Positions 47,810 through 57,344 of a stretch of DNA of 64,000 nucleotides are shown here, in pieces. Source of the DNA: Tissierellia bacterium (GTDB lineage: Bacteria; Bacillota; Clostridia; Tissierellales; Peptoniphilaceae); NCBI GenBank assembly GCA_030535395.1, contig JAUNLK010000005.1, positions 1 through 64,000 on the forward strand, in the 5' to 3' direction. Both the position numbers and the translations under genes were made by a program. The first letter of the stretch is position 1. Each line of letters starts with the position of its first letter. Below the pieces are notes generated by a model, which was not told the origin of the DNA, made no database searches, and saw only the letters and a list, made by a program, of their open reading frames with translations.

Positions 47810-47965
47810 ATGCTCACCTCATGACATATCCAAATTTTTTCGTATAAACCACAGTCTGATATGGTCTATATTTTAACATACTATCAGGGAAAAGGGAAAT
47901 AATTTGCAATTGTTCAAAACTTTTCTCCCCGGTCTGTCAATGCTATGATACCTACGGAGGCATCT

Positions 47966-49864
47966 ATGATACTACAAACAAAATCCCTATGTAAAATTCA
48001 TACCCTAAATACTATTTTTAACAATGTTTCTTTCACCGTGGAAGAGGGGGATAAAATTGGTCTCATTGGCCGCAATGGCAGCGGCAAGACCACCCTCATG
48101 GAAATCCTCTCCGGGGAGCAGAGTCCCGACGGAGGGGAGATCATCGCCTCGAAAAATCTCTCCGTGGGCTATCTCACCCAGCACTCCGAGTTCACCCAGG
48201 CCACCCTCTATGAGGAGACGGCCACGGTCTTCAAGTACTTGGATGAGATGGAAGAACAGCTGGTGGCCCTGGAGGGGCGCATGGCCGCGGCCAGCAGTGA
48301 GGAGGAGGTCCTGGAGCTGAGCCATCAGTATCAGAATCTCCTGGAAAAATTTGAGGAGCGGGGGGGCTATCAGCGGGACAGCCGAATCTCCGGCACCCTC
48401 CTGGGCCTGGGCTTTTCCCGGGAGGAATTTTCCATGGACCCCCGGGACCTCTCCGGGGGCCAGCAGTCCCGGCTCAATTTGGCCAAGCTCCTCCTCACCC
48501 AGCCCACCCTCCTCCTCCTGGACGAGCCCACCAACCACCTGGATGTGGATGCCATTTCCTGGCTGGAAAAATTCCTCCAGGACTATCGGGGCACCCTCAT
48601 GGTCATCAGTCACGACCGCTACTTCCTGGACCATGTGGTGGGGCGCATCTTCCTCTTGGAATCCGGGGAGGTCTTGAGCTACACCGGCAATTACAGCACT
48701 TTCCTCCGCCAGCGGAAAAAGGAGCTGGAGGTCCAGCACCGGAGCTTCGTTCACCAGCAGCGGGAGATCAAGCGCCAGGAGGAAATCATCGAGCGCTACA
48801 AGTCCTGGAACCGGGAGCGGAGTGTGAAGGCCGCTCGGAGCCGGGAAAAGCAGCTGGCCAAGGTGGAGCGGCTGGAGGATGTGACCCAGCAGCAGTCCAT
48901 GAAGCTCCGCTTCGAACCCAAGAAGGAATCGGGGAAGGATGTCCTCATTTTGGAGGAGGGGGCCAAGTCCTTTGGGGAGAAGACCCTCTTTGAAAATGCC
49001 TCCATGGCCCTCTACCGGGGGGAGCATGTGGGCCTCATTGGCCCCAATGGCATTGGAAAGTCCACCCTCTTAAAGGCCATCTCCGGCAGGGAGGAGCTCA
49101 CCCGGGGAAAGATCTCCCTGGGCAGCCACGTCAGCCTGGGCTACTACGACCAGCAGCTCTCCGATCTCGACGACCACCACACCGTCCTGGAGGAGCTGTG
49201 GGACAGCTATCCCCAACTTACGGTACGGGAAGTCTATACCCATCTTGCCTCCTTTCTCTTCACTGGAGATGCCACGGAGCGAAAAGTGGGGGAACTCTCG
49301 GGCGGGGAGAAGGGGCGCCTCTCCCTCCTGAAGGTGATGCTCTCCGGGGCCAATTTCCTCCTCTTTGACGAGCCCACCAACCACCTGGACATTCCCTCCA
49401 AGGAGCTTTTGGAGGAGGCCCTGGAGCACTATCCCGGCACCCTCCTCACCGTGAGCCACGACCGCTACTTCCTCAACAAAATCTGCCACCGCACCCTGGC
49501 CCTCTCGCCCCAGGGCATCCAGAGCTATGAGGGCAATTACGACTACTATCTGGAAAAGACCCAGAGGGAGGAGGAGCCCCGGGAGGAGGAGAAGAGCCGC
49601 ACCGAGCAGAAAAAGGAGCAGAAAAAGAGCCGGGCCGCCCGCCAGGAGGCCAAGCGCCAGCGGGCCCAGCTCCAGGCCCTGGAGGAAAAAATCCACCAGC
49701 TGGAGGAGCAGATTCAAAAGATCGACCGCGACCTCTCCCTCCCCGAGACCTACGAGGACCACAAAAAAGCCCTCGCTCTTTCGGAAGAGCGAGGGGAGAT
49801 TCAAGCTACATTGGACGAGGTCTATGAGGACTGGCTCCTGGCCACAGAGGCCCTGGAGGACTAG
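47966..49864 (+). CDS. ABC-F family ATPase (ribosome-associated)
   Basis: Soluble twin-ATPase of the ABC-F class, 632 residues, with no membrane domain. The first nucleotide domain has the P-loop GRNGSGKTT, signature LSGGQQSR and Walker B LLLLDEPTNHLD. A charged linker (about 240-320) precedes the second P-loop GPNGIGKST, LSGGEKGR and LLFDEPTNHLD. It ends in a long Lys/Glu/Arg coiled coil (about 530-632), as in Uup/YdiF-type proteins that act on stalled ribosomes. The ATG follows CGGAGG. The first 25 codons are AT-rich compared with the rest. Confidence 0.9.
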   Translation: MILQTKSLCKIHTLNTIFNNVSFTVEEGDKIGLIGRNGSGKTTLMEILSGEQSPDGGEIIASKNLSVGYLTQHSEFTQATLYEETATVFKYLDEMEEQLVALEGRMAAASSEEEVLELSHQYQNLLEKFEERGGYQRDSRISGTLLGLGFSREEFSMDPRDLSGGQQSRLNLAKLLLTQPTLLLLDEPTNHLDVDAISWLEKFLQDYRGTLMVISHDRYFLDHVVGRIFLLESGEVLSYTGNYSTFLRQRKKELEVQHRSFVHQQREIKRQEEIIERYKSWNRERSVKAARSREKQLAKVERLEDVTQQQSMKLRFEPKKESGKDVLILEEGAKSFGEKTLFENASMALYRGEHVGLIGPNGIGKSTLLKAISGREELTRGKISLGSHVSLGYYDQQLSDLDDHHTVLEELWDSYPQLTVREVYTHLASFLFTGDATERKVGELSGGEKGRLSLLKVMLSGANFLLFDEPTNHLDIPSKELLEEALEHYPGTLLTVSHDRYFLNKICHRTLALSPQGIQSYEGNYDYYLEKTQREEEPREEEKSRTEQKKEQKKSRAARQEAKRQRAQLQALEEKIHQLEEQIQKIDRDLSLPETYEDHKKALALSEERGEIQATLDEVYEDWLLATEALED

Positions 49865-50907
49865 CCCACATAGCCCGAGAAGAGGAAGACGAAGATCAGG
49901 GAAAATCCGCAGACGGTCAGCCAGGTGCAGCCCCCCAAGAGAATGGGCTTCACGCCCTTGCTGAAGACTTGGGCGAGAGAGATCTTAAAGCCCACCCCAG
50001 CCAGGGCCGAGGCAAAGAGGAATTTACTCAAAGTGCCCAGGTGACTGGAGAGGCTGGCGCCAAAGACTTCAAAGTTAAACAGCCCCAAGGTGTTGAGGAG
50101 AATGGCCACCAAAAAGCCCAGGAGGAATTTGGGGAAAGTGGTGACAACGACTTTCCAGAGGCTCTCTCCCTCGGTCTTTTTCCCCTCACTGGCAACTCGT
50201 GCACTCATAAAGATGGCCACGAAGATCAAGAGGGTGGTCCGGACCAATTTCACATTGATGGCCCCATTGAAGTCCGCCAGTCCACTGAGGGCAGAGTAGG
50301 TGGCCTGGGCCCCGGCTACGGAGGAGGCATCGTTGATGGCAGCCCCCGCCCAGAAGGCGAATTGATTCTCCGTCAAATGCATGACTTCCGCCAAATAGGG
50401 ATATGTAAAGGCAGCTAGGGTGTCGCAGAGGAAGATGGCCGCCATGGCAAAGGCAAATTCCTCCTCCGTGGCCTCCACAATGGGGCTCAGAGTGGCAATG
50501 GCCGTCCCCCCACAAATGGCAGTTCCGCCTCCCACCAAACGGGAGGTGTTTTTTGTTGTGCCAATGAAACGGCCCACCCAGAGGGCCACGCCAAAGGAAA
50601 CAAAGAGATTGAGAACGAGGAGGGGCAGGGCCTTGACCCCGGTCCCCAGAAGATCTGCAAAGCTCAGGGTGGCCCCGGTGAAAATAATCCCCCAGTTGAG
50701 GAATTTTTTCCCGGCGAAGGTGGTCCCCTCTTTGGCGGGTCCCGTCAAAGGCGGGGTGAGATTACAGATGATCATGGAAATCAAAAGGGCCACCATGGGT
50801 CCCCCCATGATCACCCGGCCAAGGGTCGCCTTTTGCAGGGAAAGGGAGGCCATGGCCAGGGCTCCAATGACCAGGCAGGCCACCACCATTCCGAATTTTT
50901 TGTTCAT
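49861..50907 (-). CDS. YeiH/UPF0324-family putative anion (sulfate) exporter
   Basis: Polytopic membrane protein of 348 residues with about 10 hydrophobic helices. The family segments GIIFTGATLSF, GGGTAICGGTAIATLSP and AAINDASSVAGA are present. The family is annotated as putative sulfate or sulfonate exporter; the substrate is not proven. It is convergent with the ABC-F gene (4-base overlap of the ends). The start at 50907 has GGGAG 7 bases upstream. Confidence 0.83.
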   Translation of the reverse strand: MNKKFGMVVACLVIGALAMASLSLQKATLGRVIMGGPMVALLISMIICNLTPPLTGPAKEGTTFAGKKFLNWGIIFTGATLSFADLLGTGVKALPLLVLNLFVSFGVALWVGRFIGTTKNTSRLVGGGTAICGGTAIATLSPIVEATEEEFAFAMAAIFLCDTLAAFTYPYLAEVMHLTENQFAFWAGAAINDASSVAGAQATYSALSGLADFNGAINVKLVRTTLLIFVAIFMSARVASEGKKTEGESLWKVVVTTFPKFLLGFLVAILLNTLGLFNFEVFGASLSSHLGTLSKFLFASALAGVGFKISLAQVFSKGVKPILLGGCTWLTVCGFSLIFVFLFSGYVG

Positions 50908-50965
50908 AGATACACTCCCATCTAAGCCGCCGGAGGGCTCACATTCACTTTGATAATACCCTGAC

Positions 50966-50994
50966 ATTATATCAATGGGTCAGTTGTTTAACAA
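50966..50994 (-). promoter_or_regulatory. Promoter of the YeiH-type gene
   Basis: TTGTTA (50989-50994) and TATAAT (50966-50971) with a 17-base spacer. An 11-base near-palindrome TTGTTTAACAA covers the -35 box. Confidence 0.65.
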
Positions 50995-51138
50995 GGAATT
51001 TTTCCCCGGGATTTCCCCCCTAGGGCAATTCCAAGTAAAGTGCAAATCCCTCCCAACAGTGCAAGATCCCCCCAAAGCCCTCAACCATCCCCTTTGTGGC
51101 TGTCAAGGGGAGTTCTCCACAAAGATCCCGGGGAAAAC

Positions 51139-51221
51139 CGTGGACAAGCCTGTGGATAACGTGGATAACTCTGTGGATTCCCTGAATATCCCCCTTTTTT
51201 TGGGGATAAGATTGTGGATAG
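51139..51221 (+). other. DnaA-box cluster
   Basis: Reading TGTGGATAA (TTATCCACA on the other strand): one exact box at 51151. One-mismatch boxes lie at 51160 (CGTGGATAA), 51201 (TGGGGATAA) and 51213 (TGTGGATAG), and weaker ones at 51139 (CGTGGACAA) and 51172 (TGTGGATTC). All six are in the same orientation and the first four are 9-12 bases apart. An AT-rich stretch (about 51221-51370) follows. It lies in the 463-base gap between the YeiH-type gene and tsaD, where no gene is convincing. Origin or DnaA-titration function is inferred. Confidence 0.6.
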
Positions 51222-51279
51222 AGTGCATAAATTCCCATTCGGAAAAGTTTGTAGAATTTTAGTCATCTCAAAAATGGCG

Positions 51280-51312
51280 AAAAAAAGTGCAGAATGGGCA
51301 ACCACTCTGCAC
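51280..51312 (-). terminator. Terminator of the tsa operon
   Basis: GTGCAGA/TCTGCAC outer stem with a TGG/CCA inner stem and seven T (TTTTTTT) on the minus strand, about 60 bases after the tsaD stop. Confidence 0.8.
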
Positions 51313-51370
51313 GATCGCATTTTCACAATTTACCAAAATTTTACACCACTTTGAGAGGCTTTACCAAGGC

Positions 51371-52363
51371 TCAGCCCAGGCCCAAATTGGGGTCGGCGAA
51401 GACCTGGGGCCGCCCCCCCTTGAGGTGGGTGAAGTAGGCCGCCGAGGCGATCATGGCCCCATTGTCGGTGCTGAGTTTGGGGGTGGGGGCGTAGATTTTG
51501 TACTCTTCTCCCCCTCGCTGGACCATGGCCTCCTTGAGGGCGCTGTTGGCGGAGACGCCCCCCGCCAGGACAATGGTCCTCTCGCCCAGCTCCTCTGCCA
51601 GGCGATAGGTCTTCTCCACCAGGACGTCCACCACCGCCTGTTGGAAGCTCCGGGCGAGATCCGCCTTGCGAATCTCCTCTCCCATTTGCTTGCTCCGGTT
51701 GAGCTCATTTAAGACGGCGGTCTTGAGGCCGGAGAAGCTGAAGTCGTAGCTATTTTCCTCCAGGAGGACCCGGGGGAGCTTGTAGGTCTCCTCTCCCTCT
51801 TTGGCCAGGCGGTCAATGACCGGGCCCCCGGGATAGGGCAGGCCCATGGCCCGGGCCACCTTGTCAAAGGCCTCTCCCGCCGCATCGTCCCGGGTCTTGC
51901 CGTAGAGGCTGTAGTCCAAATAGTCGGTGACGTGGAGGAGATAGCTGTGGCCCCCGGAGACAATGAGGGCCACAAAGGGGGGCTTGAGCTGAGGATGGGT
52001 GAGATAATTGGCGCAGATATGGCCCTGGAGGTGATTGACCCCCACAAAGGGAATCCCCGTGGCCAGGGAGAGGGATCTGCCGGCCGTGAGGCCCACCAGT
52101 AGGGCCCCAATGAGCCCCGGCCCCCGAGTGGCCCCAATGAGGTCGATGTCCTCAAGGCTGAGGCCGCTCTCTTCCAGGACCGTGTCCAGCACCGGCAGGA
52201 AATTGCTCAGGTGCTCCCGGGAGGCGATCTCCGGCACCACCCCGCCAAAGAGGCGGTGGATGTCGATTTGAGAGGAGAGGACATTGGCGAGAATTTTTCT
52301 GCCGTCCTCCACAATGGCCACCCCGGTGTCGTCGCAGGATGTCTCTATGCCCAGACTAATCAT
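51371..52363 (-). CDS. tsaD: tRNA N6-adenosine threonylcarbamoyltransferase
   Basis: Transfers the threonylcarbamoyl group to A37 of ANN-decoding tRNAs, with TsaB and TsaE. The 330-residue protein starts LGIETSCDDTGVAI, has the metal-binding GVNHLQGH, and the nucleotide-site segments IVSGGHSYLL and SFSGLKTAVL. It overlaps rimI by 8 bases as the last gene of the operon. Confidence 0.97.
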   Translation of the reverse strand: MISLGIETSCDDTGVAIVEDGRKILANVLSSQIDIHRLFGGVVPEIASREHLSNFLPVLDTVLEESGLSLEDIDLIGATRGPGLIGALLVGLTAGRSLSLATGIPFVGVNHLQGHICANYLTHPQLKPPFVALIVSGGHSYLLHVTDYLDYSLYGKTRDDAAGEAFDKVARAMGLPYPGGPVIDRLAKEGEETYKLPRVLLEENSYDFSFSGLKTAVLNELNRSKQMGEEIRKADLARSFQQAVVDVLVEKTYRLAEELGERTIVLAGGVSANSALKEAMVQRGGEEYKIYAPTPKLSTDNGAMIASAAYFTHLKGGRPQVFADPNLGLG

Positions 52364-52811
52364 TGCCCCACCTCCTCCAGTAGATTAAAGCGTCTTTTTT
52401 TACATCGTTGTAGTAGTTCTTTCTCCGGCCCTCCAGAATAAAGCCCAGGGACTCATAGAGGGCGATGGCCACGGCATTGTCCTCCCGCACCTCCAGGGTG
52501 GCCTTGCGGACCCCCCGCTCATAGAGGCTGAAGAGAAAGTGCTTCATGAGATAGCTCCCGTAGCCATTGCCCCGAAAGTCCTCATCTATGGCCACATTGC
52601 CAATGTGGGCCTCGTCCTCCAAGAGATAGGCCCCGGCGTAGCCCACAATCTGATCGGAGAGGGTGAGGACCTCGTAGTAGCTCAGGGGGCTCTTCAGCTC
52701 CAGCTCAAAGGAGCGCCGGGACCAGGGGGAGGAGAAGGTGGCCTCCTCTATGGAGAGCATTCGGTCCAGGTCCTCCAAAGTTGCCGTTCTAGTTTTTTTC
52801 AATAGGTCCAT
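52356..52811 (-). CDS. rimI: Ribosomal protein alanine N-acetyltransferase-like GNAT protein
   Basis: GNAT acetyltransferase of 151 residues; the acetyl-CoA motif is DEDFRGNGYGSYLMKH and the late motif is VREDNAVAIALYESLGF. RimI acetylates ribosomal protein S18, and the gene is commonly found with tsaB/tsaD as here. The start at 52811 (MDLLKKTRTATLEDL) has GAGGAACGGA upstream and lies inside the end of tsaB (23-base overlap). Confidence 0.9.
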   Translation of the reverse strand: MDLLKKTRTATLEDLDRMLSIEEATFSSPWSRRSFELELKSPLSYYEVLTLSDQIVGYAGAYLLEDEAHIGNVAIDEDFRGNGYGSYLMKHFLFSLYERGVRKATLEVREDNAVAIALYESLGFILEGRRKNYYNDVKKDALIYWRRWGND

Positions 52812-53460
52812 TCCGTTCCTCGTATTCTCGCATGGCTTGGGTCTTCTGTACATAATTGGGCTCCAGGCTGTAGGGATTGTCCCCGCCCCTCTTCCCATAG
52901 GAGTGAAGGCCGTAGCGGCCAATGGCCTCCGCCGTCACCTGGGCGACTCGGTGGGCCACATCTCCAAAGAGCTCTGGATAGGCCCCGTAGCCCGAGCCCA
53001 GGACCACGGCCTCCGGGGGAATGTCCAATTCCCCCACGGCAGTAACCCCGTCGGGGACGAGGACTTCCAGCTCCTGCCCCGTCTTCCGGTAGAGGCCCCA
53101 GTAGACCCTCTTTCTCCTGGCATCCAGGGCGGGGAGATAGAGGCCGTCCTCCTGGACATAGGCCATGGCCGAAAGGCCCGAGACCCCAATGACGGGTATG
53201 TCCAGGCTGCGGGCCAAAATTTTTGCGGTGATGAGGCTGATTCTCAGCCCCGTATAGGAGCCCGGTCCCACCCCCACGGCAATGAGGTCCAGCTCCTCTC
53301 TGGAAAAGGGGACGTACTTCAGGGCGTCCTCAATGACTTCGGTGAGATACTCCGAGTGCCTCAGCTCCCCGTCCATGGCAAAGGAGACCAGGGTCTTCTC
53401 CCCGTCCAAAATGGCCACGGAGAGCCAAGGGGTGGAGGTGTCAAAGGCCAGTACTTTCAT
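52789..53460 (-). CDS. tsaB: tRNA threonylcarbamoyladenosine biosynthesis protein TsaB
   Basis: Dimerisation partner of TsaD in the t6A complex, 223 residues. The N-terminus reads VLAFDTSTPWLSVAI and the central motif is GVGPGSYTGLRI. It overlaps tsaE by 4 bases and rimI by 23. Confidence 0.95.
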   Translation of the reverse strand: MKVLAFDTSTPWLSVAILDGEKTLVSFAMDGELRHSEYLTEVIEDALKYVPFSREELDLIAVGVGPGSYTGLRISLITAKILARSLDIPVIGVSGLSAMAYVQEDGLYLPALDARRKRVYWGLYRKTGQELEVLVPDGVTAVGELDIPPEAVVLGSGYGAYPELFGDVAHRVAQVTAEAIGRYGLHSYGKRGGDNPYSLEPNYVQKTQAMREYEERNGPIEKN

Positions 53461-53939
53461 CGCTCCCCCTCATACTTCGCCACGTGGGCAAGGAGCTCCG
53501 CTCCCCGCTCTCCCACGGCGGAAAATTCCAGCTTCCGCCCCGCCCCCTCGTAGTGGATGGTGCACAGCAGATAGTCCTCGGGGAGAAAGTCCAGGACGCG
53601 GCCCGCCCACTCAATGGCACTGACGCCCCCCTGGGAGAGGACCTCCTCCCCGCCAATGGCGTAGAAGTCCCGGGGATCCTCCATGCGATAGGCGTCAAAG
53701 TGATAGAGATCCAGGGGCCCCCGGTAGATATTCATCAGGGAAAAAGTGGCGCTGCTCACATCCTCCATAATCCCCATGCCCTGGGCAAGGCCCTGAATCA
53801 GGGTGGTCTTCCCCGCCCCCAAGTCTCCGATGAAACACAGTATGTCATCGGGGGCAATGGCGGCGGCCAAATACCGCCCAAAGTCCCTCATGGCCTCCTC
53901 CCCCTGGAGGAAATAACTTATATCGTGGATCGGCTCCAT
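53457..53939 (-). CDS. tsaE: tRNA threonylcarbamoyladenosine biosynthesis ATPase TsaE
   Basis: P-loop ATPase of the t6A pathway, 160 residues. The Walker A loop is GDLGAGKTTL and the following conserved segments are SSATFSLMNIY and YHFDAYRM. GGAGG precedes the ATG. A TATAAT box at 53963-53968 (minus strand) is the probable -10; the -35 is unclear. Confidence 0.95.
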   Translation of the reverse strand: MEPIHDISYFLQGEEAMRDFGRYLAAAIAPDDILCFIGDLGAGKTTLIQGLAQGMGIMEDVSSATFSLMNIYRGPLDLYHFDAYRMEDPRDFYAIGGEEVLSQGGVSAIEWAGRVLDFLPEDYLLCTIHYEGAGRKLEFSAVGERGAELLAHVAKYEGER

Positions 53940-56958: not shown

Positions 56959-57262
56959 TTACAATTGCACAATTTTATTTGCAATATCCTCCACAAATCG
57001 CCTATCGTGTTCCACAAATAGAAGTGTGGGCTTTGATTCCTCTATGATTTCCTCAATCTGCATTCTGGATATGACATCAATATAATTCAATGGCTCGTCC
57101 CAAACAAATAAATGAGCTGGTTTTGACAAGCTCACCGCAATTAGCACTTTCTTCTTTTGTCCATCACTGTAATTCTCCACATCCACTTCAAATAATTCCC
57201 TTGAAAAATCCAACTTCCTGAGAATTGTTTTACACAGAGTTTCATCCACATCTTGCTTGAAA
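56959..57262 (-). pseudogene. 3' fragment of an Lsa-type ABC-F antibiotic-resistance ATPase
   Basis: About 100 codons survive of the second nucleotide domain: the signature ENYSDGQKKKVLIA, Walker B HLFVWDEPLNYIDV, and the switch His in LLFVEHDRRF, ending KIVQL and a stop. The WDEPLNYIDVISRMQ pattern is that of the Lsa/Vga-like ribosome-protection group. The 5' three quarters of the gene is missing and the fragment stops at the inverted repeat at 57263. The fragment is AT-rich compared with its neighbours, which fits an acquired gene that then decayed. The function is lost. Confidence 0.8.
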
Positions 57263-57309
57263 TGCAAATACCCCCTCCACTGCTGTGAACTGTGGAGGGG
57301 GTATTTGCA
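57263..57309. repeat. Perfect 18-bp inverted repeat
   Basis: Arms of 18 bases (TGCAAATACCCCCTCCAC and its complement) around an 11-base loop. No T-run follows on either strand, so it is not a standard terminator. It marks the break point of the ABC-F fragment and may be a small mobile element or the end of one. Confidence 0.85.
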
Positions 57310-57344
57310 ACTCAAGGATTCTTTTTATTGGCTATGGATGGTTT

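Follow-up and report, generated by a model that had tools for sequence, protein, structure and literature searches.

In Bacillus subtilis, one of the in vitro DnaA-binding peaks (peak 4) lies downstream of gcp (tsaD) and ydiF, with 10 sites, an apparent Kd of 0.15 µM for ATP-DnaA, and binding that favors ATP-DnaA 16-fold at 55 nM; it belongs to a group of eight high-affinity regions and ranks among the top two of these in its preference for ATP-DnaA (PMC4447404). When six clusters outside oriC were deleted together in this species, replication was initiated early, and putting one cluster back partly relieved this early initiation (PMC5295017; PMC13220808). The six clusters go back to Okumura 2012, according to the mention of that work in PMC5295017, and the list of high-affinity regions in PMC4447404 suggests that gcp/ydiF is one of them. 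In Escherichia coli, the datA locus is another DnaA-box cluster that lies away from oriC and restrains initiation. It contains five boxes, is dependent on IHF, and stimulates DnaA to hydrolyze ATP (PMC5295017). The gene context of datA differs from that of the locus described here, and the likeness between the two is one of analogy only.

We analyzed a comparable locus in a Tissierellia bacterium, in a stretch of 64,000 nucleotides taken as a whole (the window). The gene order is tsaE-tsaB-rimI-tsaD, the cluster, a yeiH-like gene, a convergent ABC-F gene, rex, and groES (Table 1). As in B. subtilis, the cluster sits 3′ of tsaD, with the end of the block ~140 bp from the tsaD stop codon, it holds many DnaA boxes, it has a convergent ABC-F gene beyond it, and it is away from oriC; the ABC-F gene of the window is the positional counterpart of ydiF. 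Conversely, the block is inverted relative to tsaD in the window, only one of its boxes is exact, and the yeiH-like gene separates it from the ABC-F gene, so that the cluster is not immediately flanked by the 3′ ends of both tsaD and ABC-F, which is a detail of the B. subtilis arrangement and not a defining need. B. subtilis also has several clusters, while a search of the Tissierellia genome with the model R1 (described below) gave no second block. Judged by position and box content, the two clusters would be equivalent. As it comprises several intergenic DnaA boxes and dnaA lies elsewhere, the window cluster is probably a non-oriC DnaA-box cluster of a known type, in a rearranged form. Elsewhere in the window, a 118-aa open reading frame (56959–57315) resembles the C-terminal part of an ABC ATPase (SDGQKKKV, DEPLNYID) and is possibly a remnant or a short domain.

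A first-pass annotation of this DNA had reported six DnaA-box-like 9-mers within 83 bp, and all of them were found (51139–51221) in a single orientation. They include one exact and three one-mismatch boxes, as reported, that is, four boxes with at most one mismatch to TTATCCACA, and the close spacing described for the first four agrees with the measured steps of 12, 9, and 12 bp. The AT-rich stretch said to follow the boxes is present (77% AT over 30 bp, at 51246 and at 51319) but takes in the terminator-like hairpin on the tsaD side. The same annotation had named tsaD and yeiH as the neighboring genes, correctly, though the YeiH match falls below the curated cut-off; its view of tsaD as an odd neighbor did not hold, as tsaD is the neighbor expected from the B. 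subtilis position and from the conservation in Bacillota. It did not list box 5, the seventh box, which was recognized from comparative alignments. Three of the seven boxes carry two mismatches, and it is uncertain whether the flanking box on the opposite strand is part of the block.

Table 1. Features of the DnaA-box cluster and its surroundings. Positions are those of the window unless a locus is given.
Feature	Position	Strand	Description
ABC-F ATPase gene	47945..49864	+	NF000355, 466 bits; convergent with yeiH and tsaD
YeiH-like transporter gene	49861..50967	-	Between cluster and ABC-F; TIGR00698, 120 bits vs cut-off 232.6 (below)
Promoter-like site	50966..50994	-	Upstream of yeiH-like gene; TTGTTA, 17 nt, TATAAT, TG ahead of -10
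Flanking opposite-strand box	51113..51121	+	TTCTCCACA, 1 mismatch
Box 0	51139..51147	-	TTGTCCACG, 2 mismatches to TTATCCACA
Box 1	51151..51159	-	TTATCCACA, exact DnaA box; conserved block begins here
Box 2	51160..51168	-	TTATCCACG, 1 mismatch; abuts box 1 (9 bp)
Box 2b	51172..51180	-	GAATCCACA, 2 mismatches; 12 bp from box 2
Spacer	51181..51200	no strand	+ strand T tract at its end
Box 3	51201..51209	-	TTATCCCCA, 1 mismatch
Box 4	51213..51221	-	CTATCCACA, 1 mismatch; 12 bp from box 3, spacing conserved
Box 5	51222..51230	-	TTATGCACT; 9 bp from box 4
Terminator-like hairpin with T tail	51287..51312	-	3′ of tsaD, between tsaD and cluster; 11 pairs, 6 GC
tsaD (gcp, ydiE)	51371..52363	-	t6A transferase subunit; TIGR03723, 420.6 bits vs cut-off 296.1
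rimI, tsaB, tsaE	52356..53939	-	Upstream of tsaD
Second conserved DnaA-box block	L162:5601-5671, L163:5920-5995, L164:5015-5078, L166:5619-5691		

The density of the cluster was compared with that in 400 simulated versions of the 64-kb window (first-order Markov model), in which boxes were counted at one mismatch or fewer. The densest 80 bp contained four such boxes at the real locus versus a maximum of two in the simulations (0/400 exceeded two), and chance was rejected as an explanation. Exact copies of TTATCCACA are few in the 1.486-Mb genome: four of the six are at dnaA-rpmH, one is in the cluster, and the sole other exact copy outside oriC (C20:14577) is isolated, within a short coding open reading frame.

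An arrangement like that of the window was found at the tsaD loci of Schnuerera (L006), a Tissierellia metagenome-assembled genome (MAG; L003), two Syntrophomonadaceae MAGs (L023, L039), and a Bacillota MAG (L042). The alignments define a common grammar for the block, in which box 1 is followed after 9 bp by box 2, after 41–44 bp by box 3, after 12 bp by box 4, and after 9 bp by box 5, summarized as a consensus spacing of 9-42-12-9; boxes 2 and 3 are 41 bp apart in the window and about 42–44 bp apart in most relatives. The place of box 1 is occupied by TGTGGATAA or a near variant across 32 aligned blocks, and the box 3 sequence is identical in Schnuerera. When the intergenic region of the window was compared with a sister genus, whose tsaD is 74–75% identical, the best DNA match (46 bp, 87% identity, E 8e-10) took in boxes 0 to 2b and a little flanking sequence. 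In the loci of this genus, a box-like CGTGYATAA stands in the place of box 0 (L180–L187), the box 2 variant CGTGGATAA recurs (L180 and L182), and box 2b is partly retained as TTTGTGGAAA (L182 and L183).

We then considered the position of the block across the phylum, using R1, a sequence-only model built from six copies and searched over 299 genomes. Among its top 30 loci, window included, tsaD was present in 27, and in all 26 of these other than the window, the block lay 3′ of tsaD on the same strand. As R1 was trained on copies from the tsaD side, the sequence match is partly built in, while the position in independent genomes is not. The tabulated distances between block and tsaD are mostly 80–200 bp, in a table whose entries above about E = 1e-6 were picked by hand and from which no rate was taken. 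Six genomes have dnaA and the block on one contig, and the two are separated there by 0.08–0.27 of its length.

A systematic sample, made of every tenth genome (n = 30), gave at least three boxes within 600 bp 3′ of tsaD in 18 genomes versus none for the reversed motif, and 91 boxes in total versus 3 for the reversed consensus. The remaining 12 of the 30 sampled genomes did not have three boxes there, and the Anaerococcus loci had no cluster 3′ of tsaD. The cluster is hence frequent in the phylum sample, though not universal. Among 49 control tsaD loci without a Bacillota label, nearly all from other phyla and a few unlabelled, no cluster was seen beside tsaD (5 boxes versus 8 for the reversed motif, no locus with three). 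In four same-family relatives (L190, L199, L203, L204), the block was observed at the ABC-F 3′ end in a locus without tsaD, as if it had been kept with one neighbor when the tsaD/ABC-F pair split.

The direction of the block in the window is unusual. It reads against tsaD (opposite strand), where the other 26 of 26 top loci, and those of the sister genus, show the usual orientation, which is usual in Bacillota but is no known requirement; this inversion had been overlooked in the first-pass annotation. In five sister-genus loci (L180, L182, L183, L187, L195), ABC-F comes after the block with no yeiH between them. A second inverted copy 3′ of tsaD was found in another member of the family (G371, L193:1464-1609), with a tRNA-like sequence just beyond it. 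Where dnaA and tsaD share a contig, tsaD and the block seem to be co-oriented with the replication fork, and the block of the window would run against the direction suggested by GC skew. If the function is titration, orientation should not matter, and the two inversions fit this expectation.

Taken with the position match to B. subtilis, these data make it likely that the cluster corresponds to the gcp/ydiF cluster of B. subtilis and is a group of DnaA boxes outside oriC that titrates DnaA. By extension from B. subtilis, DnaA binding, cooperative loading, titration that delays initiation, and an ATP preference would also apply in the Tissierellia organism. Five to seven boxes, set close together in the same orientation, would be occupied by several adjacent DnaA molecules, in the window through the arrangement box1-9-box2-41-box3-12-box4-9-box5, and their loading would probably be cooperative, with ATP-DnaA preferred. 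The cluster would thereby hold DnaA away from oriC, initiation being delayed until enough new DnaA is made, and replication of the locus would double this DnaA sink. The patch thus probably helps to keep chromosome replication from starting prematurely. Two observations from B. subtilis speak against this reading: the effect is strong only with all six clusters removed, and DnaA was overproduced without over-initiation (PMC13220808), with which simple titration sits uneasily.

The gcp/ydiF site has been described in one species, B. subtilis (PMC4447404), and the literature searched, with two primary cluster papers (Okumura 2012, Ishikawa 2007) lying outside its scope, yielded no statement on the conservation of this site beyond it. 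The spread through the phylum is the interesting part of the finding. Should the conservation hold, Bacillota have an old non-coding DnaA locus tied to tsaD, whose aligned copies define its box order and spacing. The regions available in B. subtilis were too few to define the basis of the strong ATP-DnaA preference at some sites (PMC4447404), a question that dozens of orthologous clusters would make testable, and the natural inversions help to tell orientation-dependent from orientation-independent models. A more far-reaching proposal, which we regard as doubtful, is that the block is an old dedicated replication-control locus of Bacillota, with a 9-42-12-9 grammar that selectively loads ATP-DnaA, and an orientation-independent functional counterpart of datA; that it might work in either orientation is suggested by the two natural inversions in one family.

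The cluster might also act beyond titration, as a datA-like locus in which a DnaA complex alters the ATP/ADP state of DnaA. The fixed spacing held over the phylum sample is consistent with such a role, as is the strong preference for ATP-DnaA shown by the B. subtilis counterpart, but IHF, Hda, datA, and DARS are absent from B. subtilis (PMC13220808) and the inversion in two genomes speaks against a strictly polar machine, which makes this reading improbable.

We judged it quite improbable that the cluster is a DnaA-responsive regulatory region for a neighboring gene, here the yeiH-like one, comparable to the B. subtilis sda promoter. In the window, the cluster does lie between the tsaD terminator and the promoter-like site of the yeiH-like gene, but about 145 bp upstream of the -35 element. 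L003, L006, and several loci of the sister genus have a convergent ABC-F next to the cluster, with no promoter facing it; in G024, the next gene is different again. The constant feature is the presence of the cluster beside the 3′ ends of tsaD or ABC-F, not a promoter. The cluster may regulate the yeiH-like gene in this genome, but such a role cannot account for a conserved locus whose neighbors change and are often convergent.

The first-pass annotation had left two readings side by side, an origin of replication or a DnaA-titrating locus. Titration is supported by the position match to B. subtilis and the tsaD-side conservation, the latter answering the call of that annotation to look for the boxes in relatives; the origin did not stand. 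A primary or secondary origin, at which DnaA would bind the boxes and open the neighboring AT-rich stretch, accords with the dense boxes and the 77% AT flank, yet the locus lacks the features of an origin. In line with the annotation, which had no dnaA gene in view, the cluster is on contig C18 and dnaA is on another one (G000:C17:61300-62625), so that the oriC context rnpA-rpmH-dnaA-dnaN was not found at the cluster. The GC-skew check, which it had proposed and had named among the grounds for refutation, placed the minimum of the cumulative skew of C17 at 60 kb, the position of dnaA, where the sign turns from negative to positive and the curve rises afterward, while the cumulative skew of C18 keeps falling through the cluster and the skew stays negative there, with no turn. 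The dnaA-rpmH region, in which rpmH can be read directly from the DNA, holds nine boxes in both orientations, among them most of the exact ones counted above, and the gap on the opposite side of dnaA contains a TAGTAGTAG trio followed by TGTGGAT boxes, beside TATATATTAA; unlike there, no run of TAG/TAC/TAT trios was found at 50900–51400. The oriC of this genome therefore has the DnaA-box motif in common with the cluster but differs from it by its two box orientations, its trio, its GC-skew minimum, and dnaA itself. Moreover, B. subtilis clusters of this kind are inhibitory, and the use of an alternative origin was judged unlikely (PMC11019786). On the skew, the missing trio, and the location of dnaA elsewhere, an origin was rejected as highly improbable.

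Two compositional features were observed on these contigs. In the window, between 24001 and 28000, the GC skew of the + strand shifts from slightly positive to steadily negative, which is possibly a rearrangement boundary or a replichore feature. On the dnaA contig, 4 kb (G000:C17:76001-80000, in L173) have a GC content of 34.8% in a genome of ~57% and may represent an island of foreign DNA close to the origin.

That the block is not a protein-binding site but a bidirectional terminator or an RNA element that is transcribed might be suggested by the T tract of the spacer and the convergent genes of several relatives, but this reading was rejected as the least credible of all, since a consensus RNA structure is absent (0 pairs over 14 diverse blocks), conservation is concentrated on the directly repeated DnaA boxes, a terminator of its own is present in the window at 51287–51312, apart from the block, and the Rfam search gave no match above the gathering score, only a sub-threshold match to the L20 leader.

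Finally, a second conserved DnaA-box block was observed in several Bacillota genomes (Table 1). It consists of TGTGGATAATGTGGATAAC, CTC or CCC, and TGTTGRTAAC, then a spacer and TGTGGATAA, and it lies near comF and/or a gene for an amino-acid ABC substrate-binding protein.
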